The notes under the pieces: generated by a model | Told to the model about the DNA's origin: nothing | The model's input: only the letters and a program-made list of their open reading frames with translations | Databases searched by the model: none | NCBI GenBank assembly: GCA_963681505.1 | Contig: OY811977.1 | Span: 7,029,326-7,093,325, forward strand | DNA: 64,000 nt | Direction of reading: 5' to 3' | From: Eunapius fragilis | Taxonomy: Eukaryota > Porifera > Demospongiae > Spongillida > Spongillidae | In this document: positions 4,413 to 63,760 of the stretch, one piece after another | Layout: each line of letters opens with the position of its first letter | Position numbering within the stretch: the stretch's first letter is position 1 | Program-made: the position numbers and the translations under genes

Positions 4413-4949
4413 ATGCGAATGATCTCAGCAATATCGCTCTCCCTCCTTACCATCGGGATAATCCAGAGGTGTGTCCGCTCTGCTCCGGTTACCAACGAGG
4501 TCCGATTGCTCAGTTCTGTGTCGGGAAGGTTTGTCCGTGTCGACAACAACGGAACAATCACAGCTAACGGAAACCAGAAGTCTTCGGCCGTGTTCTTAAT
4601 GTACTTGAAGAACTCGCAGGTCCAATTTGAACTCAAAAGCAAGCCAGGGATGTTCCTGATGCTGAAGGGAAAAAATCACTCCATTGTTGATGACGTCAAC
4701 ACAACTGTCTCGTCTCCAAAGAATGCGACAGCTAACCCAATTAGCAATGAGTACACTCTTGTGGTGGACTATCCCTCTGAGCCTTTCCTAACGGAATGGG
4801 AGAAAAGCGGAACATGTGATGCACTGGTTCAGAAGGTAGATGAGAGTACGACTTGTTCTGTCGCCTTCGACCCCAGCGGTAATGTGGTGGTTCCATGTCA
4901 TCCACCAGCTGCATATATCAGGAGTTGCTTATCCGTGATACGCATGTAA
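4413..4949 (+). CDS. Secreted FGF-like beta-trefoil protein, type A, copy 1
   Basis: Encodes 178 residues in one exon. The start was placed at the ATG matching copy 2 (MRMISAIS); an upstream in-frame ATG would put polar residues before the signal peptide. Residues 1-23 form a signal peptide with a hydrophobic core (4-17) ending Val-Arg-Ser before Ala-Pro, so the product should be secreted. The core shows three hairpin-like motifs typical of a beta-trefoil: SGRFVRVDNNGTITANG, PGMFLMLKGKNHSI and CSVAFDPSGNVVVP. Their order and spacing resemble fibroblast growth factors, although identity is too low to prove it by eye. Four sequons (NGT, NHS, NTT, NAT) predict N-glycosylation. The tail, with an extra cysteine (SCLSVIRM), differs from types B and C. 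Receptor and function are unknown. The gene lies in the left arm of the inverted duplication, opposed to copy 2. Confidence 0.75.
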   Translation: MRMISAISLSLLTIGIIQRCVRSAPVTNEVRLLSSVSGRFVRVDNNGTITANGNQKSSAVFLMYLKNSQVQFELKSKPGMFLMLKGKNHSIVDDVNTTVSSPKNATANPISNEYTLVVDYPSEPFLTEWEKSGTCDALVQKVDESTTCSVAFDPSGNVVVPCHPPAAYIRSCLSVIRM

Positions 4950-5704
4950 ACCTGGCAGTTATCTGGACTTTCGTTCGAGATCAGGTAGAATCATGCCTCG
5001 AGAAGTCCGCAAGCAGTTCGACCTGTGATGTGACCAACAGGAAAACCATGCTGTATCGGCAAGAATTTTCAAATGTATATTATAAGTTGCGAGAAAGCAG
5101 TACGTGCGTAAAAGTGCATGCTTTCATTATATATCACTTGTACAGCATGCATCAATACCATAATCACATGTGCTCCTACATGTATTATAATAATCATGAA
5201 AGGTTTAATAACGTGCAACGTGGGCCTCTGTCATGGTATAGATTGTCCGTCCAACGTCGGGAGATTGAGTGACCTGTCACGCCGCATGCAGGTGGTCCGG
5301 TTCCATGCAGCGATGGCAGTCTTGAATTATGTTTGCTTCCCTTTATGTAATTCCTCCAACTCAATGAGCAATCCTACCTTTCCTTATAACAAGCTACAAA
5401 GTTCTTTTTTCTAGCCTGTGCATGTTGAATACGGGTTTCTTTTTCTGGTGATTATTTTTTCCCGAAAGTCTTTTATATCTTCATCCTGTTTAAGCCCAAC
5501 TCCTCATTTTTCCTCTTCATGAACTGTACCATTTTATCTTGTTCTTCCGTCAAAACGGCAGGCATATATGCCTCAAAGGACTTCATTGTTGCAACCAACC
5601 TGCTTAGAATTAAAAAAAAAAAAAGTGGCCTAAGGTCATGAATGTTTGATTTCAGTTCTCATGTCATGTTCTCATGTTTATACGGCTGGGACTGAGGAAA
5701 ACCA
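4950..5704. other. No gene; weak duplicated 3' flank
   Basis: The first 120 bases are a diverged inverted match to 8380-8530, behind gene 2, so they belong to the duplicated unit. The rest is AT-rich with a 14-base A run near 5611. Open frames here show no signal peptide or known motif. Confidence 0.5.
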
Positions 5705-5885
5705 GCTGCATGGCTTTGATGTAACGCTTACATCCGTTCTTTCCTCTGCCACCTTAAGCGAAACTAGTGTACCATGCAGTTGGGGCAGCAGCCCTTTCAG
5801 CTGAGGCTAGGAAGCATGCTGCTAATGATGACAAGTGCCAGGAACTGGGAGAGTCTTGTATCCCACTGGAAGTAGAAAAGTACGA
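5705..5885 (+). mobile_element. Non-LTR retrotransposon fragment (C-terminal domain)
   Basis: Translation in two frames gives FDVTLTSVLSSATLSE and then AEARKHAANDDKCQELG followed by SCIPLEVEKY. These match the conserved C-terminal domain seen more fully at 61015-61690, where the order is FDVSxTSPL, RKHxxND, CxxLGW and VPxVVETYGAWG. A frameshift near 5775 separates the two parts, so this is a dead fragment. Confidence 0.7.
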
Positions 5886-8009
5886 ACAAAGAGGCTCAGT
5901 CTATATTCTCCTGACTAGCCGATGTAGTAGATGATGCATTGTGACGAGTGAGGTCCATGCATACATCAGCATAGCAATTTACCGGTGTCATCGGATAATC
6001 GGCACCCCCCAATAATTTTCAGACAGTTTGGGTTGCGGAATTGGTCACGAGCGAGTGTGTTGGGTGTGGTCCATGTATCATGTCATTGATCAGCGCGCTA
6101 TTGTATGACAGTCATGTGACTTTTCATTGTAAATAAGAATTAAGAATTGTGAACATTCTCAGTGCATTCAGACCAGCACTGCGTGCATGGTAACACATCA
6201 ATATACGGCCATTACAGGATTAATGCCATAAATAGTACCACTGTAACGTTCCCATAACCTCATCCACTTTATTGCATCCCGGCTATAGAGGATGGGAACA
6301 TTAGGAATGCTTAGACTCCGAGCGATTGTCTTCCCTTGTTGCATGGGACACTCAGGATAGCTAAGACTGCCTCATTGGAACAATCAGGTTAACAGATTGT
6401 CACCATACATGTTCGTAATTGCATCATTATGATGTTATGTGGTTCAATTCGTTTCTGACTTCATTTAGCGCGAGGGTATTGCATTCATACATATTACTAC
6501 GTTACACTGATCTAGAGCATTACGTACACGAAATGCCAAAAAAAAAACGCACAATGAACTAATAAAAATAAATAAACACCGTACTTTAAATGGGAATATC
6601 GGAGATTCAAACCCGGGAATGAAAACGCAGCTCTCAGGTAATATTCTTCAGCTAAGCATACACCTCAAGGTCGCTCGTTATTCACTGAGACTGGATATTT
6701 CCATAAATGCATACGGTATCGAAGATATGTCGCATTTCGTTCAAGTCGTCGACCATTTTGACCATTGCATGTTAACGTTTGTAATTGTGACAACAGCGAG
6801 CAAAGAATTTCTAGCATCCGGTCGACCTAGTGTGTGAGAGCACAGAAGATAGTTTTTAGCCCATTACAGGGCCCGCGGAGGGTATTAAAATAAAGGGGGG
6901 GGGGGGGGGCGGATTTCAGTACTTCTCCATGTTAGCAATTAAGTTGTAACATAAGATGGTTGTCTAATATCCTTCGCAGTTATTCATGGTAACACGCGTA
7001 TAAATACACAGTATAAGCAAAATGCACAATAATATCTCAAATCGATCTATACATCTATACCAAAATGTCACTTTCGGTTATCATTTCTAGAAGCGAACTC
7101 AGAGGAACGTCGTCCAGGTCATAGTTCTGTCACGGTGAATCTTGAGAGTAGCTAAGTTATTGAATCTAATTTGTTCATGCTTGATTGAAGCAAGCGACGA
7201 GCGGTCAAAAAAGAACTTTCACTAACTAAATAAAAATTATCGGCCAAAAAAGTGAAGGGTCAGCTGCGGGCCCTGAATTAGCTAATGTATCGCAACATTC
7301 CCGCCTACAGCCGTATTTTTTTTACATAGCCGTTTTCCAAACCGTTTCCGTACGATAGGCGTGTTAAAGAGCGTACAACATAGCCATCAGAAGTAGCAGT
7401 ATTTAAAACTAATATTTGCGTCAGGATTGAAGCAATTGGATGGTCCTTGAGTGAAATATAACATTTTGGTACTATAGCCGCCATTTTGGATGGCGTAAAA
7501 TTATTTGGTGGCAGCCTTAGCTACCCTGAGCAGGCTGTTTAACATCTAATTTTATATACTTATGTGATCATTAAAGCAGACATGTACATGCATGGTTTAT
7601 GGAAGCCATTTCCTTTGTTGACATGATCATCGCCTACTATATGTATAAGCACAGGTTTGTTACACATGTTAACCCACTGTACATCAGTATCACATGCCCA
7701 TCTGAAATGAGGGAGTTACGTACAGATATCTAGATCCGTCGCGCTGACCTGCATCACACAAGATGCTGTGGAACATGCATGTAGCTCTTATGCACACGTA
7801 ATACGTCTCATTTCAAACAGCAAAACTGTGATATCAGGCGTGTGTGCGTGAGAATCTCTCATGCCAACATTTCTATGTTCACTTATATGGGTGGAGAATT
7901 GGGATTCGCAATGGAAGTATTGTCATACATACTTTTACTCCGAGGCCGTAAATAGGTTATTCATGAAGTGGCTCTATATGACAGGGATGTGTGCACAACT
8001 ATATAACCC
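5886..8009. other. No gene recognised; G homopolymer at 6895-6909
   Basis: About 2.1 kb without a supportable coding frame. It contains a run of 15 G at 6895-6909 and several short A or T runs. A 72-codon frame at 6619-6837 has no recognisable motif and no duplicate elsewhere in the window, so I do not call it. Confidence 0.5.
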
Positions 8010-8335
8010 CCAACGTATATACGTAAAAGTAAAAATTAACGACAGGAGACTAATCAATCATTACAGGATCCATCTACGTAGATCTACGCAGAGAACCAAA
8101 TTTGAAGTGCATTGCACTTCTTGCAGAAAGATAAATATATATACATGGCGGGTTTGAACCCCAAGGGGTGTCGGACGTTGCAACGCTGGCACAAAGCTAA
8201 TGCAAGACCCAAAAATCTATTTCACCATAGTGGAATGAGGTAGTAAGATGTGTTTAGAATAGTTCCGTCTATAACGTTTATCATTCGGAGTTATAGCCAT
8301 TTATAAATTAAACGAAAATCATTATTATAAGTTTT
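8010..8335 (+). repeat. Dispersed repeat family R, copy 1
   Basis: This block shares the core GGCGGGTTTGAACCCCAAGG, then TATCGGACGT, CACCATAG(A/T)G and a conserved AAGTTATAGCGATT-like end with copies at 19945-20270, 24490-24720 and 28003-28340. All four lie in the same orientation. The conserved GGTTTGAACCCC resembles a pol III B box, but I see no convincing A box, so I leave the class open (SINE or MITE). Confidence 0.65.
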
Positions 8336-8529
8336 ACATATACAATAAAAAAGGTAACGAAACTTTGTAGGGTACTGTCCCATACTTTTCATGCACGGCT
8401 CTGTGGCACTTTCGTGCTGTACTGGTAGGTCCATGTTGCATGGCTGCATCACACGCCGAACTGCAAGCCGTCGACCTTCGCAAGTGCTGATTCTGCACAC
8501 AAAGTCCATGCAGTCCACAAATGCCAGGT

Positions 8530-9066
8530 TTACACGCGCACCACGGATAAGCAACCACCAATATATGAAGTTGATAGATGACATGGACCTACCACATTAC
8601 CGCTGGGGTCGAAGGCGATAGAACAATTTGTACTCTCGTCCACTTTCTGAACCAGTGCACCACATGTTCCGCTTTTCTCCCATTCCGTTAGGAAAGGCTC
8701 AGAGGGATAGTCCACCACAAGAGTGTACTCATTGCTAATTGGGTTAGCTGTCGCATTCTTTGGAGACGAGACAGTTGTGTTGACGTCATCAACAATGGAA
8801 TGGTTTTGTTCCTTCAGCATCAGGAACATTCCTGGCTTGCTTTTGAGTTCAAATTGGACCTGTGAGTTCTTCAAGTACATTACGAACACGGCCGAAGACT
8901 TCTGGTTTCCGTTAGCTGTGATTGTTCCGTTGTTGTCTACACGGACAAACCTTCCCGACACAGAACTGAGCAATCGGACCTCGTTGGTAACCGGAGCAGA
9001 GCGGACACACCTCTGGATTATCCCGATGGTAAGGAGGGAGAGCGATATCGCTGAGATCATTCGCAT
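8530..9066 (-). CDS. Secreted FGF-like beta-trefoil protein, type A, copy 2
   Basis: Encodes 178 residues in one exon and is nearly identical to copy 1 over the signal peptide and core. The start is the ATG of MRMISAIS. The signal peptide (1-23) ends at Arg-Ser before Ala-Pro. The trefoil-like motifs are SGRFVRVDNNGTITANG, PGMFLMLKEQNHSI and CSIAFDPSGNVVGP. Five sequons (NGT, NHS, NTT, NAT, NCS) are present. It keeps the Gly-Pro-Cys that copy 1 has changed to Val-Pro-Cys, and its tail reads GGCLSVVRV. The gene is opposed to copy 1, and its promoter at 9067-9250 is the inverted copy of 4230-4412. Secretion is well supported; the FGF relation is inferred from motif order. Confidence 0.75.
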   Translation of the reverse strand: MRMISAISLSLLTIGIIQRCVRSAPVTNEVRLLSSVSGRFVRVDNNGTITANGNQKSSAVFVMYLKNSQVQFELKSKPGMFLMLKEQNHSIVDDVNTTVSSPKNATANPISNEYTLVVDYPSEPFLTEWEKSGTCGALVQKVDESTNCSIAFDPSGNVVGPCHLSTSYIGGCLSVVRV

Positions 9067-9250
9067 CTTTGGAAGTAAGTTTGGCGATATATAATTTTCG
9101 AATGTCTCACTGGTTGTTCGGGTGCATTATATATGTACGTTGGGGGTGACGGAAACGTTGCGATTAGGCTATTAAAGGCGGTGAGTTCGACCTACGCGTT
9201 GTATTTGTTTATCGCACTCCTATTGAGGTCAAATCGATTAACCAGAGCAG
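9067..9250 (-). promoter_or_regulatory. Promoter region of FGF-like gene 2
   Basis: Inverted copy of the block before gene 1. On the minus strand it carries TATATAAT at 9126-9133, about 60 bases before the ATG. The neighbouring ACGTTTCCGTCACCCCCAAC segment is shared with gene 1 and with the relic near 63840-63880, which marks it as the most conserved upstream part of type A. Confidence 0.55.
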
Positions 9251-21469: not shown

Positions 21470-21988
21470 ATGGCGCAAAACTTAATATTCCTCCTCGCTA
21501 TCGCTATGACTGCCCGCTCCGCTCCTACCACAAATGAGTATAGATTGTGCAGCTATCTGGCGGGACATTGTGTTAACGTCGACAACAGCGGAACCATCAC
21601 AGCCAATGGAAGCCCAAAGTCGTCTACTGTATTCGTCAAGTACTCCAACTATGATAGAGTACAATTCGAACTTAAAAGCAAGCCAGGAATGTTTCTAATG
21701 TTGAAAGAACTAAACCATTCTATTGTTGATGTCGACAACAATGTTACCTCGCTACCAATGAACTTAACAGCTAACCAAACTGTCGTTCGTGAATACGTTC
21801 TTATGGTGGACTATCCCTCAGAGCCGCACCTAACGGAATGGGAGAAAAGCACAACCTCCGGTGCACTGGTTCAGAAAATTGACGAGAACACGACGTGTGC
21901 CATTTCTTTTGACAGTAGCGGGAAAGTGGCCGGCCCATGCAATTTATCAGCAGTGGATTCCATTACGTTGAAGCCTGTACGAGATTAG
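21470..21988 (+). CDS. Secreted FGF-like beta-trefoil protein, type B, copy 3
   Basis: Encodes 172 residues in one exon. I start at the ATG of MAQNLIFLLAIAMTARS because the ATGGC context is shared by all type B and C copies. Residues 1-17 are the signal peptide, three residues shorter than in the sister genes. Core motifs are AGHCVNVDNSGTITANG, PGMFLMLKELNHSI and CAISFDSSGKVAGPCNL, ending DSITLKPVRD. Seven sequons (NGS, NHS, NVT, NLT, NQT, NTT, NLS) predict heavy glycosylation. Four mature cysteines (RLCSYLAGHC, TTCAIS, GPCN) could form two disulfides. The C-terminal ITLxPV resembles the final strand of fibroblast growth factors. MITE family 1 lies just downstream at 22125. Confidence 0.75.
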   Translation: MAQNLIFLLAIAMTARSAPTTNEYRLCSYLAGHCVNVDNSGTITANGSPKSSTVFVKYSNYDRVQFELKSKPGMFLMLKELNHSIVDVDNNVTSLPMNLTANQTVVREYVLMVDYPSEPHLTEWEKSTTSGALVQKIDENTTCAISFDSSGKVAGPCNLSAVDSITLKPVRD

Positions 21989-31187: not shown

Positions 31188-32338
31188 CAGTGTTGCCGCA
31201 AAATACTTTTTCTATTTAATCGTCTATTTCGCGATATATCGCGAAATGAGGATTTAATCGCGATATTTATATCGCGATATATTATTAATATTTATTATCA
31301 ATTATAACTAGTTATCATTGTTGTGGTGACTAATTATGGCTACCAAAGTGAACGCAAAACCCGCACTTGTTGCTACAAAAGATGAATTCGTTTGTGTCGA
31401 TCGCAAAGTGTATAAAAGCAGTGTCTGGCAATACTTTGGATGGCACAAGAAAGCAATCGGTTCTTGCTGGGGTCATTTGCTATGGATTGGTGTCAAGACA
31501 TGGGAACAATACCTCGAACATGTGGTACCACATCACATCCGTGCATGGAATAAAGGCACTCCAGCAAGGGTGAGTGTATATGGTAAAATAGACTTGCAGT
31601 TGTACTGTGGATACGTTTTTATGTGTACAGCTGCAGGAAGGAGGAAATAGGCAGCAGCTGCAGCACAAACACTGCCAGACTTGCCAGAGTAACGGCTGAG
31701 GAAGATGAATCAGAAGAGGCAGAGCCACCAGCAAAGAAGCCAGCGTGTTCAGAAGAGGAAGACTTCAATTTACTCTTTGGCCAAAAGGAAGATGAAGGTT
31801 TAGAGCCAGTAGAAGCTGATGATCTCCTGAAAGTAATTCAAGACGAATTGGAAATATATCTGAAGACAGCAGAAACGAATTTTAGAAGTGATGATCCATT
31901 GCTATGGTGGAGGAATCACGAGTCATGCTTCCCCACCATAGCCAAACTGGCGAGGAAATACTTGTCCATTCCTGCTTCTACTGCACCAGCAGAAAGAGTA
32001 TTTTCTACCGCGAAAAATATTGTTCAATAGAACCGGTGGCGCATCCTACCGGAAAGGCTATGTAAATGCATCTTTATAAGGCAAAATAAAAACCTATTTT
32101 AAGGGATTATACTCTTCATTACCGTTCATGGCGTTCATTTTACCATATCACCGGCATCCTTGATTTAACCCTTGATTTCATTCAATTTACCCGTATTTGA
32201 AGTCGTTTTAACTCTCGTAAACATGTATGGTAAAAATCGCCGCGAAATGAATACATATTATTCGCGATATATCGCGTTTCGCGATATAAAGATTTAATCG
32301 CGATATATCGCATTTCGCGATATATCGCGGCAACACTG
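31188..32338 (+). mobile_element. hAT-type DNA transposon, internally deleted
   Basis: CAGTGTTGCCGC at the left end is inverted exactly at the right end (GCGGCAACACTG). The flanks are CTTACAAG (31180-31187) and CTTACAAA (32339-32346), an 8-bp target duplication with one difference, as expected for hAT elements. The empty site survives in the inverted paralogue at 36171-36178, where TTTACAAA stands alone between matching flanks. Subterminal TTTCGCGATATATCGCG palindromes recur near both ends and could be transposase-binding sites. Confidence 0.85.
31336..32100 (+). pseudogene. hAT transposase relic: broken BED finger and C-terminal dimerisation domain
   Basis: The N-terminal part reads SSVWQYFG, which opens BED zinc fingers. 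After a frameshift the second frame gives GVICYGLVSRHGNNTSNMWY and HITSVHG, the rest of a BED finger. A plausible intron (GTGAGT at about 31570, TTTTATGTGTACAG at about 31630) follows. The 3' part is an acidic linker and then DPLLWWRNHES, FPTIAKLARKYLSIPASTA and ERVFSTAKNIV, the hAT C-terminal dimerisation domain, ended early by TAG where NRWRILPERL would continue. The RNase H-like catalytic core of some 300 residues is missing. The relic cannot encode a working transposase. Confidence 0.8.
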
Positions 32339-34389: not shown

Positions 34390-34545
34390 TACTTAATAGG
34401 TATGTTTTGTCTATTATACGGTAACAACCTAATTATACATTTTGCGATCTCTGCTGCATATTATTATATAAATGCCTCTTACAGCTGATTGTTCATTTCA
34501 TCTCGAAGACAAGCACACATATACAGATAACAAGTGGAAATGCTC
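34390..34545 (+). promoter_or_regulatory. Promoter region of FGF-like gene 4
   Basis: TTTGCGATCTC at 34441-34451 lies 13 bases before TATATAAA at 34465-34472. GCCTCTTACAGCTGA follows immediately, then TCTCGAAGACAAG and the ATG about 75 bases after the TATA box. The same order is kept in front of genes 3 and 5 and the stub at 41 kb. Confidence 0.65.
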
Positions 34546-35076
34546 ATGGCACTAATTTTAATATTCCTCGTCGCTAGCGCTGTGATGGCTAACGTTGCCC
34601 GCTCCCTTCCTACTCCAAATGAGTACAGATTGTGCAGCTATCTGGCGGGAAAGTGTGTTAATGTCGATTACAACGGAACCATCACAGCCAATGGAAGCCC
34701 AAAGTCGTCTGCAGTATTCGTCAAGTACTCAAACAATAATAGAGTACAATTCGAACTTAAAAGCATGCCAGGAATGTTTCTAATGCTGAAAGAACTAAAC
34801 CATTCTATTGCTGATGACGACAACAATGCTACCTCGCTACCAATGAACGTAACAGCAAACCAAACTGTCGTTCATGAATACGTTCTTGTGGTTGACTTTC
34901 CCTCCGAGCCGTACCTAACGGAATGGGAGCATAACACAACCTCCGGTTCACTGGTTCAGAAAGTAGATGAGAACACGACGTGTGCCATTTCCTTTGACAG
35001 TAGCGGGAAAGTGGCGGGTCCATGTAATTTATCAGCAATGGATACAATTACGTTGAAGCTTGTACGAGATCCTTAA
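34546..35076 (+). CDS. Secreted FGF-like beta-trefoil protein, type B, copy 4
   Basis: Encodes 176 residues in one exon. The start follows the shared ATGGC site; another in-frame ATG two codons upstream (34540) is private to this copy. Residues 1-20 (MALILIFLVASAVMANVARS) form the signal peptide, followed by Leu-Pro-Thr instead of the Ala-Pro of other groups. Core motifs are AGKCVNVDYNGTITANG, PGMFLMLKELNHSI and CAISFDSSGKVAGPCNL. Nine sequons make this the most glycosylation-rich copy. It differs from copy 5 at about 11 of 176 positions; Met replaces Lys in the KSKPG loop, and His-Asn-Thr replaces the Gln-Ser-Ile after LTEWE. Acidic residues outnumber basic ones, unlike heparin-binding growth factors. 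Confidence 0.75.
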   Translation: MALILIFLVASAVMANVARSLPTPNEYRLCSYLAGKCVNVDYNGTITANGSPKSSAVFVKYSNNNRVQFELKSMPGMFLMLKELNHSIADDDNNATSLPMNVTANQTVVHEYVLVVDFPSEPYLTEWEHNTTSGSLVQKVDENTTCAISFDSSGKVAGPCNLSAMDTITLKLVRDP

Positions 35077-38559: not shown

Positions 38560-38700
38560 TTTTGTCCTATTATACCGTAATTACCTAATTATACATTTTG
38601 CGATCTCTGCTGCATATTATTATATAAACGCCTCTTACAGCTGATTTGTCATTCATCTCGAAGACAAACACACATATACAGATAACAAGTGGAAACGCTC
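38560..38700 (+). promoter_or_regulatory. Promoter region of FGF-like gene 5
   Basis: TTTGCGATCTC at 38597-38607, TATATAAA at 38621-38628 and CGCCTCTTACAGCTGA directly after it, in the same spacing as gene 4. Confidence 0.65.
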
Positions 38701-39231
38701 ATGGCATTAATTTTAGTATTCCTCGTCGCTAGCGCTGTGATGGCTAACTTTGCCCGCTCCCTTCCTACTCCAAATGAGTACAGATTGTGCAGCTATCTGG
38801 CGGGAAAGTGTGTTAATGTCGATTACAACGGAACCATCACAGCCAATGGAAGCCCAAAGTCGTCTGCTGTATTCGTCAAGTACTCAAACAATAATGGAGT
38901 ACAATTCGAACTTAAAAGCAAGCCAGGAATGTTTCTAATGTTGAAAGAACTAAACCATTCTATTGCTGATGACGACAACAATGCTACCTCGCTACCAATG
39001 AACGTTACAGCTAACCAAACTGTCGTTCACGAATACGTTCTTGTAGTGGACTATCCCTCCGAGCCGTACCTAACGGAATGGGAGCAAAGCATAACCTCCG
39101 GTACACTGGTTCAGAAAGTGGATGAGAACACGACGTGTGCTATTTCCTTTGACAGTAGCGGGAAAGTGGCGGGTCCATGTAATTTATCAGCAATGGATAC
39201 AATTACGTTGAAGCCTGTACGAGATTCTTAA
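38701..39231 (+). CDS. Secreted FGF-like beta-trefoil protein, type B, copy 5
   Basis: Encodes 176 residues in one exon. The only ATG in the leader is the shared ATGGC site. Residues 1-20 (MALILVFLVASAVMANFARS) are the signal peptide. Core motifs are as in copy 4, with KSKPGMFLMLKELNHSI restored to the family consensus and Gly instead of Arg before VQFELKS. Eight sequons are present. The end DTITLKPVRDS matches copy 3. It has no intron, whereas animal fibroblast growth factor genes are normally split. An ATTAAA at about 39385 could serve as a poly(A) signal. Confidence 0.75.
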   Translation: MALILVFLVASAVMANFARSLPTPNEYRLCSYLAGKCVNVDYNGTITANGSPKSSAVFVKYSNNNGVQFELKSKPGMFLMLKELNHSIADDDNNATSLPMNVTANQTVVHEYVLVVDYPSEPYLTEWEQSITSGTLVQKVDENTTCAISFDSSGKVAGPCNLSAMDTITLKPVRDS

Positions 39232-46009: not shown

Positions 46010-46390
46010 TCCAATCCTCAGATGAGATGGTATTCAAATATTACATGTAGATGAATCCCGTTGGATCTGTGTGTCAACAATTGGATGCATGTACTTTTGG
46101 GGAATTAAATGTATATGACAGCCGATTTACCACTGTCTCTCCAGCAACACTTAAGGTTATTTGTTCACTTCTTCACTGCTGTAAAACTGAACTGACTGTC
46201 AATATCATGCAATTGCAACAGTGTAATGGAAGTGACTGTGGGGTGTATGCAATAGCATGTGCAGCGTCTTTGTGCAATGGAGACGAGCCGTCAGACCAGT
46301 GCTGGGATGAGAAAAAGCTGCGCCTTCATTTCCCCCTTCGGTGCTCTGAAAGTAGCTCTTTGTCAGTCTTTCCAGCTTCTATACCGCAAT
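46010..46390 (+). pseudogene. Ulp1-type cysteine protease relic
   Basis: ILHVDESRWICVSTIGC in one frame and, after a shift, ELNVYDSRFTTVSPATLKV with LQQCNGSDCGVYAIACAASL and the CNGDEPSDQ that follows. The parts around the catalytic Asp (YDS) and Cys (SDCGV) fit the C48 (Ulp1/SENP) family. The catalytic His expected before Trp is replaced by Arg (SRW). Ulp1 proteases cleave SUMO; in this context the domain belonged to the transposon polyprotein with the PHD finger that follows. Frameshift and lost His make it inactive. Confidence 0.7.
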
Positions 46391-46399
46391 AAAATCCTA

Positions 46400-46648
46400 A
46401 ACACCCTAAAGGTACCAGTCTACTGTATTTGTCGGCTTCAATGGCACAAGGAAGATATGATATTGTGTGGGACGTGCATGGAATGGTATCACCCAAGCTG
46501 CTTGTCTTTGCCTTACCACATTTTCAAGAGTTCTGAACCATGGCGCTGTTCACTGTGCTCGGTGTCTGGTATAGAGAGTGATTTGTGCACCATAGGCCTT
46601 ATCATTATAATACGAGTACATGATGTAATCAACTCATTCTCATTCTGA
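46400..46648 (+). pseudogene. PHD finger, C-terminal part of the same element
   Basis: All eight zinc ligands of a PHD finger are present between 46424 and 46558: C-x-C, C-x2-C, H-x2-C and C-x2-C in YCICRLQ, MILCGTCMEWYHPSC and PWRCSLC. PHD fingers read histone tails. The reading is joined to the Ulp1 part only by a frameshift near 46345. The order Ulp1 then PHD is typical of such invertebrate transposon proteins. Confidence 0.75.
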
Positions 46649-46654
46649 GACGGT

Positions 46655-46895
46655 TCTGCTGGAATGGTTTTGCTCTTTCAGCTTCAGAAACATTCATGGC
46701 TTGCCTTTCGACTTGTGAGTTCTTCAAATACATTACGAACACGGTTGACGGCTTTTGGTTTCCGTTAGGTGTGATATAATTGTTCCGTTGTTGTCGCACC
46801 TCGCTGGTAAGCTGAGAGCACAGCGGGCACGCCTCCGGATTACCCATGTGGGTATGAGAGTTAGCGATATATTGCAGACATCATTCTTATCTTTA
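46655..46895 (-). pseudogene. FGF-like type A gene fragment
   Basis: The minus strand keeps LTSEVRQQRNN, TPNGNQKPSTVFVMYLKNSQV and a partial KGKPxMxVSEAE. The part for LLSSVSGRFVRVD is deleted, and the VQFELKS loop is lost. No signal peptide can be read in frame. It shares GGGTAATCC and CAGCGAGGTGCGA with the relic at 52095-52235, so the two descend from the same dead copy. Confidence 0.75.
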
Positions 46896-51109: not shown

Positions 51110-51231
51110 TACTGTTATGCGATAGCTCTCCTAATGATCCATCACGTCACTTGTGATTGGTGGCGTATATATAAACGCCTCTTACGGCCGATGGGAGTCA
51201 TCATCCATACTGATAAGTAGTGAAAACGCTA
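51110..51231 (+). promoter_or_regulatory. Promoter region of FGF-like gene 6
   Basis: TATATAAA at 51168-51175 runs into CGCCTCTTACGGCCGA, 57 bases before the ATG. A TTATGCGATAGCTCTC near 51115 may be a variant of TTTGCGATCTC. The leader is shorter than in the other type B copies. Confidence 0.6.
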
Positions 51232-51762
51232 ATGGCACTAAATCTAATATTCCTCCTCGCTATCGCTGTGATGGCTAACGTTGCCCGCTCCGCTCCTACC
51301 ACAAATGAGTACAGATTGTGCAGCTATCTGGCGGGAAAGTGTGTTAATGTGGACAACAGCGGAACCATCACAGCCAATGGAAGCCCAAAGTCGTCTGCAG
51401 TATTCGTCAAGTACTCAAACAATAATAGAGTACAATTCGAACTTAAAAGCAAGCCAGGAATGTTCCTGATGTTGAAAGAACTAAACCACTCTATTGCTGA
51501 TGACGACAACAATGCTACCTCGCTACCAATGAACGTAACAGCTAACCAAACTGTCGTTCATGAATACGTTCTTGTGGTGGACTATCCCTCTGAGCCGTAC
51601 CTAACGGAATGGGAGAAGAGCACAGCCTCCGGTGCATTGGTTCAGAAAGTGGATGAGAACTCGACGTGTGCCATTTCCTTTGACAGTAGCGGGAAAGTGG
51701 CGGGTCCATGTAATTTATCAACAGTGGATACAATCACGTTGATTCCTGTACCTACTTCTTAA
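51232..51762 (+). CDS. Secreted FGF-like beta-trefoil protein, type B, copy 6
   Basis: Encodes 176 residues in one exon. The start is the shared ATGGC site. Residues 1-20 (MALNLIFLLAIAVMANVARS) are the signal peptide, followed by APTTNEYRL as in copy 3. Core motifs are AGKCVNVDNSGTITANG, PGMFLMLKELNHSI and CAISFDSSGKVAGPCNL. Seven sequons are present. The final strand DTITLIPVPTS, with its LxPxP ending, is the most FGF-like tail of the set. Four mature cysteines are conserved. It combines the mature N-terminus of copy 3 with the DDDNNAT loop of copies 4 and 5, which could reflect gene conversion. Confidence 0.75.
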   Translation: MALNLIFLLAIAVMANVARSAPTTNEYRLCSYLAGKCVNVDNSGTITANGSPKSSAVFVKYSNNNRVQFELKSKPGMFLMLKELNHSIADDDNNATSLPMNVTANQTVVHEYVLVVDYPSEPYLTEWEKSTASGALVQKVDENSTCAISFDSSGKVAGPCNLSTVDTITLIPVPTS

Positions 51763-52094
51763 GGAATCGTATTAAAGCAATCAATTGTATTGAAGCAGTA
51801 ACGCGGGTCGTACCAGCTTCTGGCGAATCCACACCTGTTAGCGTGCATGTGGGTTGTATGTGTTTACATTTGTGTATTTATGCATGCTATTTATAAACTG
51901 ATTGAATTTTTGTTTTTACTGCATTATGACAGAAGGTTACCCACCGAATCCCACACCACGCTCATCAGCTCTTTAAAATTCGCACAGAGGGATCTTGCGC
52001 TTCCCTTCTAGCTCGGGCGGGAAGCTGTAATGTTGTTTATACATCTATATCAGTAGCTCATGCAGTGATTTCCAATCCCTTATCAATATAACTG

Positions 52095-52235
52095 TAAATA
52101 ATATCGGTAACACTCCTTACCACGTGGGTAATCCAGAGGTCTGTCCGCTGTGCTCACAGCGTACCAGCGAGGTGCGATTACTCGGCCTAAGGTTTGTCCG
52201 TGTCGACAACAAGGGAACAATCTGAGCTGGTAGAT
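52095..52235 (+). pseudogene. FGF-like type A gene fragment (5' part)
   Basis: CACTCCTTACCACGTGGGTA, ATCCAGAGGT, GTCCGCTGTGCTC, CAGCGAGGTGCGATTACTC and TTTGTCCGTGTCGACAACAA follow the type A gene from the signal peptide to the first trefoil motif. About 14 bases are missing at the SSVSG part, which shifts the frame, and there is no start codon. Nothing matches after 52235. Confidence 0.75.
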
Positions 52236-53255
52236 TAATTAATAATCATTTTGCAATCAGTGTCTGTGGATAGCTATAGCTCCATTAGATTACAGCTGCA
52301 TTACACGATTTCAAACTAAATTATACCGTCAGCATGCATGCACGAAAGGGGTAATTGCTGTATGTAAACAACTTACAGCATTTATACGTTTAAAATTCCA
52401 TGCCCAATTAGGTGTTAATCGACAGCTTGCACAGCATGTGATCGCCGACGGAGCAGGGTCAAACCGGTTTTAAAACTCAATACAGTCCTGGTGGTTCAGC
52501 GTCGGTACTATACGCAACGGTCTTTTGCATTTGCCTTTGCCGTGCAAATTTCGCAGCAATGTCTTATTAGAGGCTATTGGAGGTTAATGTAAAAGCCAGG
52601 CCTTCTGCAGCCCTGTGTGCAGTTTACATCATAATGGAGAAAAAATTTCTCATCATTCCTCTGTTTATAGACCTGATAGATCAAACAACTATTGTACGCT
52701 TTCAACATAACCTATACACCTTCCACTTCGATATATCGCGTCAAGCTTCAAGTAGGCTTAGTTCTTTCCATTTTCGTAGAAATTGTACGAACTCACCTAT
52801 CGTATGTTGTGCTAATTAATGCGTACATTGGATCAGGCTGGGGAGCTTTTCAGTGGTAAGATTTGATCGAAAAAGGAGTTTCAGCTGCCCAAGGCTAGAT
52901 AATAACAATTGCGCCAATACCTCTTTTAAAAATAAATTATTTGCTTTATCATCCCTGGCAAACTAGGAACTTTTTAGTTTACATGCAGAAAAATTATAGA
53001 AAAAATGAAATACTGGACCACGTGGGAGAGAGAGATATGCATTCCTTTATGTAACGTTCTTCATGAGATAAATAGAAATATTTTATAAAACATAATATAC
53101 ATGTTTATCATTGCACGAGAAACATATATTCAATGAAAGTTTCCACGCGCGCCATAATGACGAGTATTCCCCCAACAAGTAACTTTACACTTTGCTGCTT
53201 CTTTGTTGGTAAATGGTGCGTAATGTCGTCTATAGCGTACGTAGAGGAGCATGTA
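52236..53255. other. No gene recognised
   Basis: An 80-codon frame at 52577-52819 lacks a motif. Long AT-rich stretches follow. I see no repeats shared with the rest of the window. Confidence 0.4.
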
Positions 53256-53792
53256 TTAGGTAGGGTATACCCGCGTCAATGTAATGCGATCCACTGCTGA
53301 TAAATTGCACGGACCGGATACTCTCCCGCTACTGTCAAAGGAAATGGCACACGCCGTGTTCTCGTCCACTTTCTGAACCAGTGCACCGGAGATTGTGCAT
53401 TTCTCCCATTCCATTAGGTACGGCTCGGAGGGATAGTCCACCACAAGAACGTATTCATGAACGACAGTTTGGTTAGCTGTTACGTTCATTGGTAGCGAGG
53501 TAGCATTGTTGTCGACATGAACAATGGAATGGTTTAGTTCTTTCAACATCAGGAACATTCCTGGCTTGCTTTTAAGTTCGAATTGTACTCGGTCGTTCTT
53601 GGAGTAAGTGATAAATACTGAAGATGACTTTTGGTTTCCATGAGCTGTTATAGTTCCGTTGTCGCTGACATTAACATACCTACCTGCCAGATAACTGAGC
53701 AATCTGTACTCAATGGTGGCCGGAGCAGAGCGGACAACGTTCGCCACAGCAGCGATAGCCAGGAGAAGGTGTAGTAAAACATTCATAGCCAT
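53256..53792 (-). CDS. Secreted FGF-like beta-trefoil protein, type C, copy 7
   Basis: Encodes 178 residues in one exon. The start is the ATGGC site (MAMNVLLHLL). The signal peptide spans residues 1-22, ending Val-Val-Arg-Ser before Ala-Pro. Core motifs are AGRYVNVSDNGTITAHG, PGMFLMLKELNHSI and CAISFDSSGRVSGPCNL. Seven sequons include NVS inside the first motif. Ser-Lys-Asn-Asp-Arg precedes VQFELKS, as in copy 8, where type B has Asn-Asn-Asn. The tail DRITLTRVYPT is unique. The first Cys pair of type B (LCSYLAGKC) is absent: Leu and Tyr stand there, so one disulfide is probably lost. Confidence 0.75.
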   Translation of the reverse strand: MAMNVLLHLLLAIAAVANVVRSAPATIEYRLLSYLAGRYVNVSDNGTITAHGNQKSSSVFITYSKNDRVQFELKSKPGMFLMLKELNHSIVHVDNNATSLPMNVTANQTVVHEYVLVVDYPSEPYLMEWEKCTISGALVQKVDENTACAISFDSSGRVSGPCNLSAVDRITLTRVYPT

Positions 53793-53925
53793 AAGCTTTC
53801 AAAGCGGGTATATACGTGCTCTTTGAGATACTAACCTATGAGTCTACCCTTTAAGAATATATACACACTAGGAAACAAGGGGAATCCTAAATGTCCAAAT
53901 CTCTAGCCACGCGACTTGTAATGCG
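53793..53925 (-). promoter_or_regulatory. Promoter region of FGF-like gene 7
   Basis: On the minus strand two candidate TATA words occur: TGTATATATTC near 53860 and CGTATATACCC near 53810. The type B CCTCTTAC block is not recognisable. The assignment rests on position. Confidence 0.35.
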
Positions 53926-55699: not shown

Positions 55700-55792
55700 T
55701 AGGCCTTATGCGATTTCAGGTGTGTATATAAACATCGATGGGTCAAACAGACATCATGCACAAAGGCTGAGTGAATATGTTGGGAAAAGGCC
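55700..55792 (+). promoter_or_regulatory. Promoter region of FGF-like gene 8
   Basis: TATGCGATTTC at about 55707-55717 precedes TATATAAA at 55725-55732, 61 bases before the ATG. The pair reproduces the order seen in type B, although the CCTCTTAC block is not kept. Confidence 0.5.
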
Positions 55793-56335
55793 ATGGCAAT
55801 GAAACTACTTCTGATCGTTGCTTTCTCTCTCATGATGGCGTGGGTTGTCGCCCGCTCGGCTCCGGCCGCTATCATAGTGGAGTACAGATTGTGCAGTTAC
55901 GTGGCAGGAAAGTATGTTCATGTCGACGACAACGGAACCATCACAGCCAATGGAAGCCCAAGGTCGTCTTCAGTATTCATCACTTACTCCAAGAACGACC
56001 GAGTACAATTCGAACTTAAAAGCAAGCCAGGAATGTTCCTGATGTTGAAAGAACTAAACCATTCTATTGCTGATGTCGACAACAATACTACCTCGCTACC
56101 AATGAACGTAACAACTGTCGTTCATGAATACGCTCTTGTGCTGGACTACCCCTCCGAGCCGTACCTAACGGAATGGGAGAAAAGCACAACCTCCGGTGCA
56201 CTGGTTCAGAAAGTGGACGATAACACGACTTGTTCCATTTCCTTTGACAGTAGCGGGAATGTGGCGGGTCCATGCAATTTAGAAACAGGGGATATCGATA
56301 GTATTACTTTAAGTTCAAGCATCATTGGAGCGTAA
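55793..56335 (+). CDS. Secreted FGF-like beta-trefoil protein, type C, copy 8
   Basis: Encodes 180 residues in one exon from the ATGGC site (MAMKLLLIVAFSLMMAWVVA). The signal peptide ends Arg-Ser before Ala-Pro-Ala. Core motifs are AGKYVHVDDNGTITANG, PGMFLMLKELNHSI and CSISFDSSGNVAGPCNL. Six sequons are present. Three residues (Ala-Asn-Gln) of the MNVTANQTVVHEY loop are deleted, and Leu replaces Val in VLDYPSEPYL. The tail ETGDIDSITLSSSIIGA is longer and different from the others. It shares the KNDRVQFELKS loop with copy 7, to which it is closest. The shared stretch from VQFELKS to NHSI is nearly invariant in all copies. Confidence 0.75.
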   Translation: MAMKLLLIVAFSLMMAWVVARSAPAAIIVEYRLCSYVAGKYVHVDDNGTITANGSPRSSSVFITYSKNDRVQFELKSKPGMFLMLKELNHSIADVDNNTTSLPMNVTTVVHEYALVLDYPSEPYLTEWEKSTTSGALVQKVDDNTTCSISFDSSGNVAGPCNLETGDIDSITLSSSIIGA

Positions 56336-59201: not shown

Positions 59202-59226
59202 AAGTACTTTAATAATAATAATAAAA
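59145..59226. repeat. (AAAT)n then (AAT)n microsatellite
   Basis: About 13 AAAT units, then AGTACTTT and AATAATAATAATAA, directly before a plus-strand retrotransposon fragment. Confidence 0.9.
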
Positions 59227-59330
59227 GTCCCAGGCCACTTCGGCTCTCTATGGCAGGTTAAACCTGGTCCTAGTTAGAGCGAATACCAGAGCTCTGCTGT
59301 CCCGTTCAATGGCAACTGGATGTTAGTCTC
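59227..59330 (+). mobile_element. Non-LTR retrotransposon 3' end fragment
   Basis: The plus-strand frames read SALYGRLNLVLVRANTRALL then SRSMATGC and a stop, with one base shift. The 3' side reaches AATAATAATAATAATAAT at 59478. Confidence 0.6.
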
Positions 59331-59517
59331 CTCACCTTCTCCGTTCCAGTTTATTGTTTTTTGTTTAGTAACATTGCGTAGCTTAAAACTGTAAATGTTG
59401 TATATGGAGTATCAACTTAGTGAAATAACTTATAATTGTGTTTGTGTGTTGTACATCATCGTCATGTTTCGTTTAAAATAATAATAATAATAATTCCATT
59501 ACATAACACAATTAAGT

Positions 59518-60250
59518 TTAATACTCAAGAAGGGGAGCACGGGCACATCTGAGGAGAATGGCTCTTGCATTCTGCCTCATCAGTGTGACACCCAGCAGGC
59601 AGTACATTTGGCTCAGTGCCTCAGTTTCACATATTCCCACTTGCATGGCTAGCCTCTTACTCAATCTGGAGTAGCATTCTTGGGCTTCACATCCCCAACC
59701 ACCATAGACCTCCACCACTAATGGAATACATGACCAGCCCAATCTTGCACACATCTGATCGTTCTTGGCATGCTTTCCAATTTCACCAACCTCTGCAGAG
59801 TTACCTGAAGCCAAGCTCGCTTCCAGAATCAAGTCCATATTAAGCGGATGAATGACTTTCAGGTCAAAGGCTGCAGGGTTGGAGAGGGACCAGTTTGGTA
59901 CCAGCACATCAGCTGGCCTAGAAAAGTCTAAGCCTGGACCTTTCTCCAGTTGAGGAGATAAGCATGCTTTGGAGCACAGATTGGCAAAACAGTCTCGCAG
60001 TTTATTGTGCCGTGCAATGACGTCCCCTCCAGAATGACATGTAAGGGCATGGTGGCAATCTAGATCAAGGGCACTTTAGCAGAAGGGACGTTTACTGTCA
60101 GCTGAGAAGACAGGTAGACCTAGCCACCATTTTAATAGGACTTGCATCTCTTGAGGCTCCAAAGCTAAGTCATTGTGTATGCAAGGAATAGCTCTCAACC
60201 AGGCATTAGCATTACTGGCTGATACTGCTCTGAGTCTTGCTCTGGTACAG
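59518..60250 (-). mobile_element. Non-LTR retrotransposon C-terminal domain, nearly complete copy
   Basis: The minus strand reads ARLRAVSASNANAWLRAIPC, LLKWWLGLPVF, a Cys/His part with CHHALTCHSGGDVIARHNKL, SRPADVLVPNWSLSNPAAFD, LKVIHPLN, GKHAKNDQMCARLGW, SCIPLVVEVYGGWGCEA and VTLMRQNARAILLRC. One in-frame TAG interrupts the finger. Loss of the first CxxC pair by TAG and the FC end suggests a recent inactivation. (AAT)n follows at 59478-59497. Confidence 0.7.
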
Positions 60251-60360
60251 ACTGTATTCAATATCATAATACATACATGATAATAACACACTAAATAATA
60301 ACTACTTATTAAACAGACTACTGCAAAATACCTAAGCCTAACTAATGTTTCAGACATAGT

Positions 60361-60600
60361 CTACTCAAATGATTGGGGCAGACTTCTCGTCAAAATAGCT
60401 CTTGCTATGCTACGAGTTAACACCAGACTAAGTCTGCCAAAAAGATCAGCAGTGACCTTACTTTTTGGCAGAGAGACACAGATGGCAAGCCGAGTAGCCA
60501 GACGGATAAAAGTGGTGTGTGCTTCTCTGCCCCAGTTCCATACGTCTCGACAGCCAGAGGAACACACACCCAACCTAGTTCCTGGCACTTGATACTATTA
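60361..60600 (-). mobile_element. Non-LTR retrotransposon fragment
   Basis: KCQELGWVCVPLAVETYGTG then, after a shift, GREAHTTFIRLATRLAICVS and RLSLVLTRSIARAILTRSLP. It begins at (ATT)n (60590-60655). Confidence 0.65.
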
Positions 60601-60734
60601 TTATTTATTTTTTTATTTTTATATTTTATAAATATATTATTATTATTATTGTTTAAACATAACATTACAACATTAAACAGTAGCACGTATCAATAACATG
60701 AACAAAATGAAATCACGAGGGGTCTTAAACTAAA

Positions 60735-60905
60735 GTTTTCAACCCTCTGGGGTTTGGGTGCCGACACGGGAAAGTAAGGCCCTGGCTACGCAGCGAACCA
60801 AAGTGAGGTTCAGCCATTGGTAAATGCTGACCAAGGCTTTGGACTTGCTGCAATGTAGCTGTAAGGCCAGCCGAGCTGCTACACGAGAGAAGGAGTCCCT
60901 GGCTT
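60735..60905 (-). mobile_element. Non-LTR retrotransposon fragment
   Basis: The minus strand reads EARDSFSRVAARLALQLHCS, KSKALVSIYQWLNLTLVRCV and ARALLSRVGTQTPEG. (ATT)n flanks it on both sides (60640-60655 and 60908-60945). Confidence 0.65.
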
Positions 60906-60907
60906 CT

Positions 60908-60939
<32 letters not shown>

Positions 60940-60945
60940 GTTAAA
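60906..60945. repeat. (ATT)n microsatellite
   Basis: Eleven ATT units at the junction between two retrotransposon fragments of the same orientation. Confidence 0.9.
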
Positions 60946-61014
60946 TTATATTTTTTGCAGTGTCACTTGACCTGAATATACAGAAACAACACTGATTAAA
61001 CACAAAGTACAGCT

Positions 61015-61690
61015 CTACAGTACACGAGCTATCCTAGAGAGGATAGCTGTAGCATTAGCCCTGACCAGGTGGAGATTCAGTCGGCCATAGATCTCATTAA
61101 GTACGATGGACTTTGGCCAACACATGGAAGTGGCAAGTCTAGAGGCTACAGAGGAGATAATGGCAGTGGCTTCTTTTCCCCAAGCTCCATATGTTTCAAC
61201 TACCATAGGGACACATACCCATCCTAGATCTGAGCATTTGGGGTCATTGGCTTGGTGTTTCCTAGACTCAGTGGCCTGGGCAGCAGCTGTGGCCGACACT
61301 CCCGCTTCCAACAAATTAACAGGGTTTAGCGGTGAGGTGATGGACACATCTAATGCTGCTGTTCTGCCCAAAAACCAGTTAGGAAGAAGTATGTCAGCTG
61401 GACGGGTCTTACTGTGGTCTCTACTTAGGTTTTTGCCGACTTCCACCTTAACCCCTATGTGAGCCCGACGACATGTCTCCACCAAGATGTCCCTAATCAT
61501 GTTATGCCGAGTTACCACATCACCACCATACTTGCAGGTAACTGCATGGTGGCCAAGGTAGTCAAGTGTACTACCTGGGCATAGTGCACATTGTGAGCCC
61601 TCTGAAACATCAAGGCCAAGCCACCATTTGATGGCTACCTGGAAAACAGGAGGATCCATGTGAAGCCCTAAGCTCTCGGAGGGCACAACT
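61015..61690 (-). mobile_element. Non-LTR retrotransposon C-terminal domain, longest uninterrupted copy
   Basis: An open frame of 223 codons reads, in order, SESLGLHMDPPVFQVAIKWW, a zinc-finger-like part (CALCPGSTLDYLGHHAVTCK, GGDVVTRHN), TRPADILLPNWFLGRTAALD with VSITSPLN, RKHQANDPKCSDLGWVCVPM, VVETYGAWGKEA and IYGRLNLHLVRANATAILSR. The finger and RHN, then PADxLxPN...D, then K and the conserved Val-Glu-Thr fit the order zinc finger and PD-(D/E)XK endonuclease at the end of R2/R4/Dong-type elements; this is my inference, and no reverse transcriptase is present. It begins and ends at (TAA)n tracts (61691-61710 and 60908-60945). There is no genuine start codon context, so it is not an independent gene. 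Confidence 0.7.
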
Positions 61691-61794
61691 ATTATTATTA
61701 TTATTTATAATTATCATTATTATTATATGTATAATTTAACATTAAAATACATACGCATGGGTACAATCTTAAACATAGCCTATAGTTAATTTTA

Positions 61795-62515
61795 ATTCAA
61801 AATACATCTGATGAGGATGGCAGTGGCATTGGCCCTCACTAGATGGAGGTTGAGTCTGCCATAGATGTCTCTAAGTACAGCTGACTTGGGCCTGCATGTG
61901 AGAGTGGCAAGCCGAGAATCCAGCTGTGAGAAGGATTCAACAGCTTCATTTCCCCATGCACCATAAGTCTCTGCTACCAGGGGAACACACAACCAGCCGA
62001 GTTCTTTGCATTTTGCATCATTGGCACTGTGCTTTCTGCCTGGGCAGCTGATCCTGCAGACACTCCAGCTTCCATAAGGGTATGTGTGTTAAGCGGAGAG
62101 GTTACAGAGATATCAAAGGCAGCTGTCTTGCCTGCTGTCCAGTTAGTCAAAAGAAGGTCAGCAGGATGGGTGTGATTATGATTGGCTGTGAGGTCATTGC
62201 CAGCTTCCACTTGGATGCCAAGATGGGCCCGGTGGCATGTATCAGCCAGAACATCACGAAGGGTGTTGTGTCGAACCACCACATCACCACCACACTTACA
62301 AGTGGTGGCATGATGTCCCAGAGGGTTAAGAGCATTGCCAGAGCAAATTGCACACTGGGATCCCTGGGATGTGTGCATACCAAGCCACCATTTTATGGCA
62401 ACTTGATGGACCGGTGCATCAAGATGTAGACCCAGCCGCTGTGATGGTAGAACAGACAGCCAGGATGATGCATGTGGTGCGGAAACTGAAACAATGGAAA
62501 CCTCCTCCAAGCTTA
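61795..62515 (-). mobile_element. Non-LTR retrotransposon C-terminal domain, frameshifted copy
   Basis: The upstream frame reads VSAPHASSWLSVLPSQRLGL, VAIKWWLGMHTSQGSQCAIC, GHHATTCKCGGDVVVRHNTL, HPADLLLTNWTAGKTAAFD and SVTSPLN. After a shift near 62030 the downstream frame reads VCVPLVAETYGAWGNEAVES and IYGRLNLHLVRANATAILIR. About 75% of residues match the copy at 61015-61690. Confidence 0.7.
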
Positions 62516-62674
62516 GTCAGCATTGGAGGAGGTTTCCAATAGCAGATTGAACATACAAGTGTCCAATGTGCTGGATAGTTCTTTTGTGAGACCAGAGACG
62601 TTGAGAGATATGCAGTGCCTTATCAGGTGGAACAACCTATAAACACCGGTACTTATCATTCCTACATACACACT

Positions 62675-62728
62675 TAGGAAGGTTTGTCTATGTTGACAAC
62701 AACGGAACAATCAAGTCGTCAGGCGAGG
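62675..62728 (+). pseudogene. FGF-like type A fragment, 54 bp
   Basis: Reads GRFVYVDNNGTIKSSG, with the same deletion of Thr-Ala-Asn-Gly-Asn-Gln and the same Tyr as the relic at 63240-63760, but on the opposite strand. It is therefore a copy of that relic and not of a live gene. It ends exactly where a retrotransposon hairpin begins. Confidence 0.75.
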
Positions 62729-62942
62729 TTGTTCAAGGAACATTCTCCAGGATTGCTTCTCACCTTGCCATCAGCCAGTCCAGGCCAAAGGCATTAGTAT
62801 ACGGCAGGCTTAACCTGGCAATGGACTTGACCAAATGAAGGTTGAGCCTGCCGTATATGCCCACCATTGCTAATGCCTTTGGCCTGGACTGGCTGATGGC
62901 AAGGTGAGAAGCAAGCCTGGAGAATGTTCCTTGAACAACCTC
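62725..62942. repeat. Inverted repeat of retrotransposon sequence, arms about 100 bp
   Basis: GAGGTTGTTCAAGGAACATT at 62725 is inverted at 62923-62942. CCATCAGCCAGTCCAGGCCA with AAGGCATTAG pairs with the region 62870-62900. The loop is under 20 bases. The right arm is in place within the fragment that continues to 63110, so the left arm is an inverted duplicate of its end. Confidence 0.8.
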
Positions 62943-63110
62943 ACCCCAGTTGCCATATGTTTCTACTGCCAAGGATGTACTAGCCCACTCTAGCTCTTGA
63001 CATTTAAGGGTATTCGTATGTCCCTTTTGATTCTCTGCAGCATGTATCTTTCGATTCTCTGCGGCAAGTGCTGCCACACTAACCACTTGGCATGACTCCC
63101 CCAAGATAAG
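62760..63110 (-). mobile_element. Non-LTR retrotransposon fragment
   Basis: The minus strand reads ESCQVVSVAALAAENRK, GHTNTLKCQELEWASTSLAV, ETYGNWGEVVQGTFSRLASH and VGIYGRLNLHLVKSIARLSL. It has an unusual tandem duplication (HAAENQK after ENRKI). Confidence 0.65.
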
Positions 63111-63239
63111 TTACAAGTGATAATTATGAATAACCCACTGTACTTCTGTTTCATATACATGTACGGCTTTAGCGCAATTTCAAATTTTGTAAATTCTTGC
63201 TACTTATTTTTACATGTAAGCTCAGTTCATAACTGTTAT

Positions 63240-63760
63240 AGCCGTGTTTACACGCGTATCACGGCTAAGCAATCGCCAATATATGTAGCTAATAGGCGAC
63301 ATGGACCCAACACATTCCCACTGCCGTCGAAGGCGGTAGAACAATCGTACACTCGTACAATCGTACCATCTGAACCAGTGCACCACATATTCCTCTTTTC
63401 TCCCATCCCGTTAGGAATGGCTCAGAGGGATAGTCCACCACAAGAGAGTACACATTGTTAATTGGGTTAGCTGTCGAATTCTTTGGAGTGGAAACAGTTG
63501 TATTGACGTCTTCAACAATATTAATGGAGTGTTTCTTTCCCTTTAGCATGAGGAACATTCCTGGTTTGCCTTTGAGTTCGAATTGGACTTGGAAGTTCTC
63601 CAAGTACATTTAGAATACCCCTGACGACTTGATTGTTCCGTTGTTGTCAACATAGACAAACCTTCCCGACACCAGACCGAGCAATCGGACCTCGTTAGTT
63701 GCTAACCGGAGAGCGAACACATCCAGGATAACCCCGATGGTAAGGAGAGAGAACGATTTG
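63240..63760 (-). pseudogene. FGF-like type A pseudogene
   Basis: Most of the gene is recognisable on the minus strand: signal peptide region, GRFVYVDNNGTI, MYLENFQVQFELKGKPGMFL, EDVNTTVSTPKNSTANP, SLVVDYPSEPFLTGWEK and CGALVQMV. A four-base insertion after the signal peptide, deletion of six codons (TANGNQ), a TAA before MYLEN and a changed C-terminus with small insertions disable it. The promoter block with GGGGGTAATGGAGACGTTGC follows to about 63960, so it was a whole type A unit. It carries the only known sequence context for the 54-bp copy at 62675. Confidence 0.8.

Follow-up and report, generated by a model that had tools for sequence, protein, structure and literature searches.

A stretch of 64,000 nucleotides from the genome of the freshwater sponge Eunapius fragilis (assembly GCA_963681505.1, contig OY811977.1, here C7, positions 7029326-7093325; called the window below) carries eight intact, single-frame genes of one family, each encoding a hydrophobic N-terminus followed by what is predicted to be a β-trefoil core of fibroblast growth factor (FGF) shape. 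The window is part of an array of about 0.6 Mb on C7, whose copies are under constraint and nearly always have a TATA box of their own. The reading that we favour, with roughly even confidence, is that of lineage-expanded, cytokine-like secreted ligands that would have FGF ancestry of a remote kind and FGF shape, and would act through a non-classical surface.

Genes, remnants and the extent of the family

The intact genes, numbered 1 to 8, lie at 4413..4949 (+, 178 residues), 8530..9066 (-, 178), 21470..21988 (+, 172), 34546..35076 (+, 176), 38701..39231 (+, 176), 51232..51762 (+, 176), 53256..53792 (-, 178) and 55793..56335 (+, 180), the ATG being the first coordinate on the forward and the second on the reverse strand. 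All eight show an in-frame ATG and a hydrophobic N-terminus, and they are 57-88% identical to the 51232 copy. A mechanical list of open reading frames had started five of them too early, at a GTG that lies 12 bases ahead of the ATG in genes 3-6 and 42 ahead of it in gene 1; their corrected ATGs are 4413, 21470, 34546, 38701 and 51232. When 47 family members were compared with the window by tblastn, the best E-value was 1.5e-95 or lower for each gene, which excludes chance resemblance. The best query was the gene's own protein for the copies at 8530, 51232 and 53256, and an identical database protein for 55793.

The eight intact genes of a preliminary description of this DNA are thus borne out, while its five broken copies are reduced to four. 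Two remnants appear at E ≤1e-3, one broken and spread over several frames (46643..46870, -) and one of near full length with an internal stop and a frame change (63251..63813, -). A looser scan (E ≤5), which also returned many chance-level rows, adds two short, weak ones: a 5' part at 52092..52264 (+; protein E 0.004, DNA E 4e-23) and a β1-β3 part at 62608..62823 (+; protein E 0.002, without a listed DNA match). Neither search, the first made with all 47 members, yielded a fifth remnant in the window. The tandem array of single-exon genes, also part of that description, proved larger than it could see. Searches of the whole genome (219 Mb, 24 contigs) gave 60 matches with one family member as query and 58 with another. 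We examined 48 loci, 30 from one genome search and 18 fetched additionally, leaving out shorter fragments. An uninterrupted frame with the core and the cysteine-pair end is present in 45, all with a hydrophobic N-terminal stretch; the three uncounted loci are one without a frame, one without the core pattern, and a possibly intact open frame of 203 residues in which the end pattern was missed. Most of the 45 (34) lie on C7 between 6.92 and 7.53 Mb, with one more at 5.89 Mb, seven on C18 and three on C2.

A protein search with the family returned 57 matches. Five are named, all of them Ephydatia muelleri gene models (Em0017g755a, Em0017g746a, Em0019g422a, Em0017g742a and EMCRGX_G022896), and no name from outside E. 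muelleri occurs in this search or in a second one with seven matches, both of which require shared five-residue words. Among 63 database matches, 18 are at least 97% identical to a fetched locus and, judged from this identity, probably stem from this species or one very close to it. A quick, midpoint-rooted tree with several long branches was built from 84 rows (45 loci and 39 database proteins, without the 18 near-identical ones, P0049 and proteins shorter than 120 residues). It places 27 array genes with two unnamed database proteins, P0008 and P0028, in one clade with support 100. We had considered this clade exclusive to the genome and rejected the idea, as P0008 and P0028 fall inside it. 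The four E. muelleri rows with names in the tree all lie outside it, and the other lineages mix loci of this genome with other rows. With a midpoint as its root, the tree gives no ground for calling the divergent protein P0062 basal. The genome paper of E. muelleri describes tandem duplication as widespread, and its main text contains neither FGF nor fibroblast (PMC7385117).

Three array copies on one chromosome, L021-L023 (C7 7266762, 7284957 and 7383093), are 99.97-100% identical over 3.5 kb, which may reflect very recent duplication or duplication in the assembly.

Constraint and promoters

The paralogues are under constraint. Pairwise NG86 ratios of non-synonymous to synonymous substitution rates (dN/dS) have medians of 0.41, 0.47, 0.40, 0.27 and 0.26 over bins of rising dS. 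The 43 distinct coding cores, without L041, which the core pattern had excluded, form 903 pairs. Of these, 482 underlie the medians; the rest lay outside the bins or gave no score (dS <0.02, ≥3 or undefined). By region, the corresponding ratio of proportions (pN/pS), computed on 29 of the 30 array copies, is lowest in strands 9-11 (0.27), strands 4-6 (0.31) and β7-β8 (0.40), and highest in β1-β3 (0.55), the loop at residues 67-90 (0.61), the C-terminus (0.72) and the signal peptide (0.86).

A TATAWAW box stands 51-91 bp upstream of the chosen ATG at 39 of 42 loci, against a mean of 6.9 and a maximum of 13 in resampled controls and 15 of 227 windows farther upstream; five of 47 loci were dropped for want of a recognised methionine plus core. 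One of the three loci without the box, L057, has a fetched upstream sequence too short to tell. Within the window, seven of the eight genes have one: gene 1 at 4348..4354 (+), gene 2 at 9127..9133 (-), gene 4 at 34465..34471 (+), gene 5 at 38621..38627 (+), gene 6 at 51166..51172 (+), gene 7, in a TATA-like form, at 53857..53863 (-) and gene 8 at 55725..55731 (+). For gene 3 none was found within 130 bp. Together with frames that stay open from signal peptide to last strand, these boxes argue that the genes are complete, consist of one exon and have promoters of their own, the untranslated part being the conjectural one. The earlier label 'intronless' holds for the coding sequence, and a long spliced leader is unlikely given TATA boxes so close upstream.

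In some paralogue pairs (e.g. 34546/51232), an identity of 91-92% sets in about 25 bp upstream of the start codon and ends close to the stop. These edges are sharper than neutral flanks would give, and gene conversion of the coding parts is possible. Such pairs were also the reason to consider retroposed copies, an idea we set aside because most copies come with a TATA box of their own and long flanking stretches are common to the closest pairs.

Predicted fold

The mature part of gene 6 (51289-51759) was modelled as a β-trefoil of the 12-strand type. Its best structural matches in the PDB are FGFs, aligned over the full length, so that a non-trefoil outcome, which would have spoken against the proposed relation, did not occur. 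A β-trefoil core of FGF shape is therefore predicted for the family from this model. The three hairpin motifs described earlier can be located on β2-β3, β6-β7 and β10-β11, the second with a reservation: residues 68-86 have a predicted local distance difference test score (pLDDT) below 50, and strand β7 is not formed there. A search of a viral fold library put baculovirus and iridovirus FGFs and pandoravirus fascin-like proteins on top and added nothing.

Of the further traits, a cysteine pair C-x(12-14)-C is kept in 62 of 68 members, and N-glycosylation sequons number two to eight per protein (median 4 over the 68), counted from a mature start guessed by pattern. Secretion, as claimed before, is consistent with the hydrophobic N-termini that are seen, the putative signal peptides having been recognised by a simple hydrophobicity test.

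Sequence relation to FGFs

One sequence link comes from comparing profiles. With hhalign, the 68-row family profile and an FGF profile align at a score of 38.0 (P 6.3e-5), with β1-β3 in register, compared to a maximum of 23.3 in 200 shuffles. Against a fascin-domain profile the family profile reaches 21.9, a score without a shuffled control. The sets behind these profiles comprise 16 FGFs (11 typed, five from databases), six typed interleukin-1 (IL-1) proteins and four fascin domains of one typed protein, and the larger and more diverse FGF set favours the FGF score. The family rows include near-duplicates; P0049 and proteins below 120 residues, which lay outside earlier alignments, were left out.

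Among the best 60 of 85 rows obtained with a broad family profile against PDB sequences, designed trefoils stand at 7e-6, an FGF1 mutant at 0.005 and FGF8b at 0.016, most natural FGF1 chains at 0.1 to about 2 and a glycosylasparaginase at 0.6. The FGF8b match is in register (family 30-54, chain 31-55), and that of the FGF1 mutant is off by one trefoil unit (family 23-87, chain 52-116). A single-sequence PDB search gave chance-level matches to actinidin only, and NCBIfam nothing useful. A whole-genome search with the Pfam FGF model and one with a typed FGF8 had no match, which is uninformative in both cases; 14 control genomes were equally silent in the former.

In Pfam, the best matches among the eight window genes are Fascin (0.0013), PH_2 (0.0032), IL33_bt (0.013) and FGF (0.11), all below cut-off, and two of the eight match nothing. 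Where bits are given, the FGF cut-off of 24 is not reached, the best being 12.9 for the window genes and 15.3 for ten relatives. Among the 47 members at E ≤0.1, Peptidase_G2 also occurs, in 10 (best 4.9e-4).

Several observations weigh against an FGF relation. In the same 47 members Fascin matches outnumber those to FGF (17, best 0.0021, against 13, best 2.6e-4), and in a set of 16 members the two are level at seven each (best FGF E 3e-4). The divergent member P0062 lies above the Pfam fascin (PF06268) cut-off, at 23.6 against 23.1 bits, which every other member listed with bits misses, and for its model HA17 lectins, fascin and FGFs are about equally good matches. The alignment of the family and FGF profiles is confident over 26 columns only. 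Scores of single sequences overlap (FGF 11.5-34.2, IL-1 12.9-22.8, fascin 11.4-20.9), and some single-sequence FGF alignments (FGF1, FGF4) are shifted by one trefoil unit. The FGF signature, a Cys/Glu/Tyr pattern, is found in none of the 68 members and in 15 of the 16 FGFs. Most members are acidic, with a median isoelectric point of 5.3 (range 4.2-9.7, n=68, calculated from the guessed mature start); the FGF set spans 5.8-11.0, and 15 of its 16 proteins reach at least 7.9, as whole-protein values and not a map of the surface. Finally, the origin of the FGF receptor (FGFR) has been placed in eumetazoans (PMC8662651, PMC7260276), contrary to PMC10176882.

From fold and profile we infer an FGF relation of the family, as the preliminary description had proposed; its profile check favours FGF over IL-1 and fascin and leaves the Pfam cut-off unreached, and the relation does not extend to the classical marks. 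As judged from sequence, the receptor and heparin surfaces of classical FGFs would not be conserved, which remains compatible with FGFR binding via another surface.

A proposed role and its alternatives

We propose that the family consists of small, presumably secreted and glycosylated proteins of freshwater sponges. Each gene would be compact, consist of a single exon and in nearly all cases have a TATA box to itself, its product comprising a signal peptide and one predicted FGF-shaped β-trefoil. A long disordered loop with sequons would join strands 6 and 8 of the trefoil, and the C-x(12-14)-C pair is a further conserved trait. The intact frames, at least 45, would stem from duplication, tandem as well as dispersed, accompanied by the loss of some copies. 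The proteins may act extracellularly as diffusible ligands, and a cytokine-like role appears the likeliest because the fold is FGF-shaped and its strands are constrained. Ancestry and shape would be remotely common with FGFs, and the classical heparan-sulfate/FGFR surface would be unused. By analogy, a compact, TATA-driven, intronless tandem layout could be that of inducible secreted effectors. A bolder version, which we rate as rather improbable, has an ancient FGF-type trefoil turned into an interferon-like array of intronless, TATA-driven, probably inducible ligands with their own receptor surface, predating or paralleling eumetazoan FGF signalling.

The strongest competitor, a tentative one that deserves to be taken seriously, is a secreted protein of the matrix or the surface coat whose trefoil would bind glycans and share no descent with FGFs, comparable to the cuticle PPODs of Hydra. 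The frequent fascin matches and the behaviour of P0062 would suit it, as would one tryptophan and one tyrosine that are invariant in 68/68 members. PPODs are likewise secreted, taxon-specific, fascin-like and expanded by duplication in a freshwater animal, and are the best precedent seen for such a family (PMC3531485). They have two trefoils with repeated tryptophan sites (PMC3531485). The threefold sugar-site pattern is missing here: three QxW motifs occur in 0/68 members, and a single tryptophan follows residue 25 in 63/68. The profile score, 21.9 for fascin against 38.0 for FGF, also speaks against it, as a weaker test with four domains of one protein.

That the genes encode canonical FGFs acting on an FGFR of the sponge we consider unlikely. 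The best structural and profile matches are indeed FGFs, and a study using MorF reported one FGF morpholog in Spongilla lacustris, FGF pathway players enriched in pinacocytes and, by citation, FGF receptors in Spongilla (PMC10176882). The Cys/Glu/Tyr signature is not kept, however, most members are acidic, and the presence of an FGFR in sponges is disputed (PMC10176882 versus PMC7260276 and PMC8662651).

A family of IL-1-type cytokines is very improbable: IL33_bt is matched by five of 47 members (best 0.0034), IL-33, a trefoil cytokine with local β5-β6 resemblance, is among the best PDB sequence matches of a narrow profile (E 0.77) and IL-1β enters the Foldseek list of the model from 5.6e-3, but IL-33 aligns with a shift of one trefoil unit (family 61-100, chain 101-141), the profile score of 19.5 lies within shuffles (maximum 23.1), and the IL-1 signature occurs in 0/68 members, though three of the six IL-1 proteins used also lack it. 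An IL-1 identity, prompted by a VxFExKxxPGxF stretch, was rejected on the register and the score.

Comparison with known systems

The family resembles FGFs (PF00167) in predicted fold, full-length structural alignment and the β1-β3 profile, and differs from them in lacking the signature (68/68), in being mostly acidic, in its long disordered sequon-bearing loop and in forming a single-exon array with 34 intact copies. It shares with fascin domains (PF06268) a similar frequency of Pfam matches; fascin itself is intracellular and has four trefoils. Type I interferon gene clusters, where intronless genes for secreted ligands stand in tandem, are alike in architecture and unrelated in fold.

A structural match of FGF type has already been published for a freshwater sponge (PMC10176882). 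That FGF morpholog spans residues 61-230 with 11.8% identity to chicken FGF4 and, like our family, is a trefoil found by structure and missed by sequence; unlike it, and compared by the published description, it is reported as a single gene. Sponges are included in an FGFR/VEGFR phylogeny in a paper on Halichondria (PMC9798719), and one on Oscarella lists FGF-signalling terms (PMC8380372). We found no report of a sponge tandem array of FGF-like genes among the top-ranked results of our searches, whose scope excluded supplements and most subscription literature.

A constrained, expanded sponge family of FGF shape offers an easily expressed set for testing the origin of FGF- and IL-1-type ligands. 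It lets one ask whether the fold predates the classical receptor, and what gives rise to ligand arrays of this size in an animal that has no nervous system. A warning comes with it, as fold-based annotation can assign an FGF label where the sequence marks of FGFs are absent.

Other features in the window

Several related open frames between 54542 and 62516, mostly on the reverse strand, show CPLC or CALC, GHHAxTC and DxLLPNW motifs; they are probably pieces of a non-LTR (long terminal repeat) retrotransposon, with no Pfam match in the four frames tested. A frame at 46051-46389, with only a weak Rhodanese_C match in Pfam (0.013), reads like a piece of what we assume to be a SUMO/Ulp1-type protease. 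Beside it lies an open frame with a PHD finger (46256-46645, +; Pfam 9.9e-8). The C-terminal dimerisation region of a hAT transposase is found at 31587-32027 (+; Pfam 2.7e-16).

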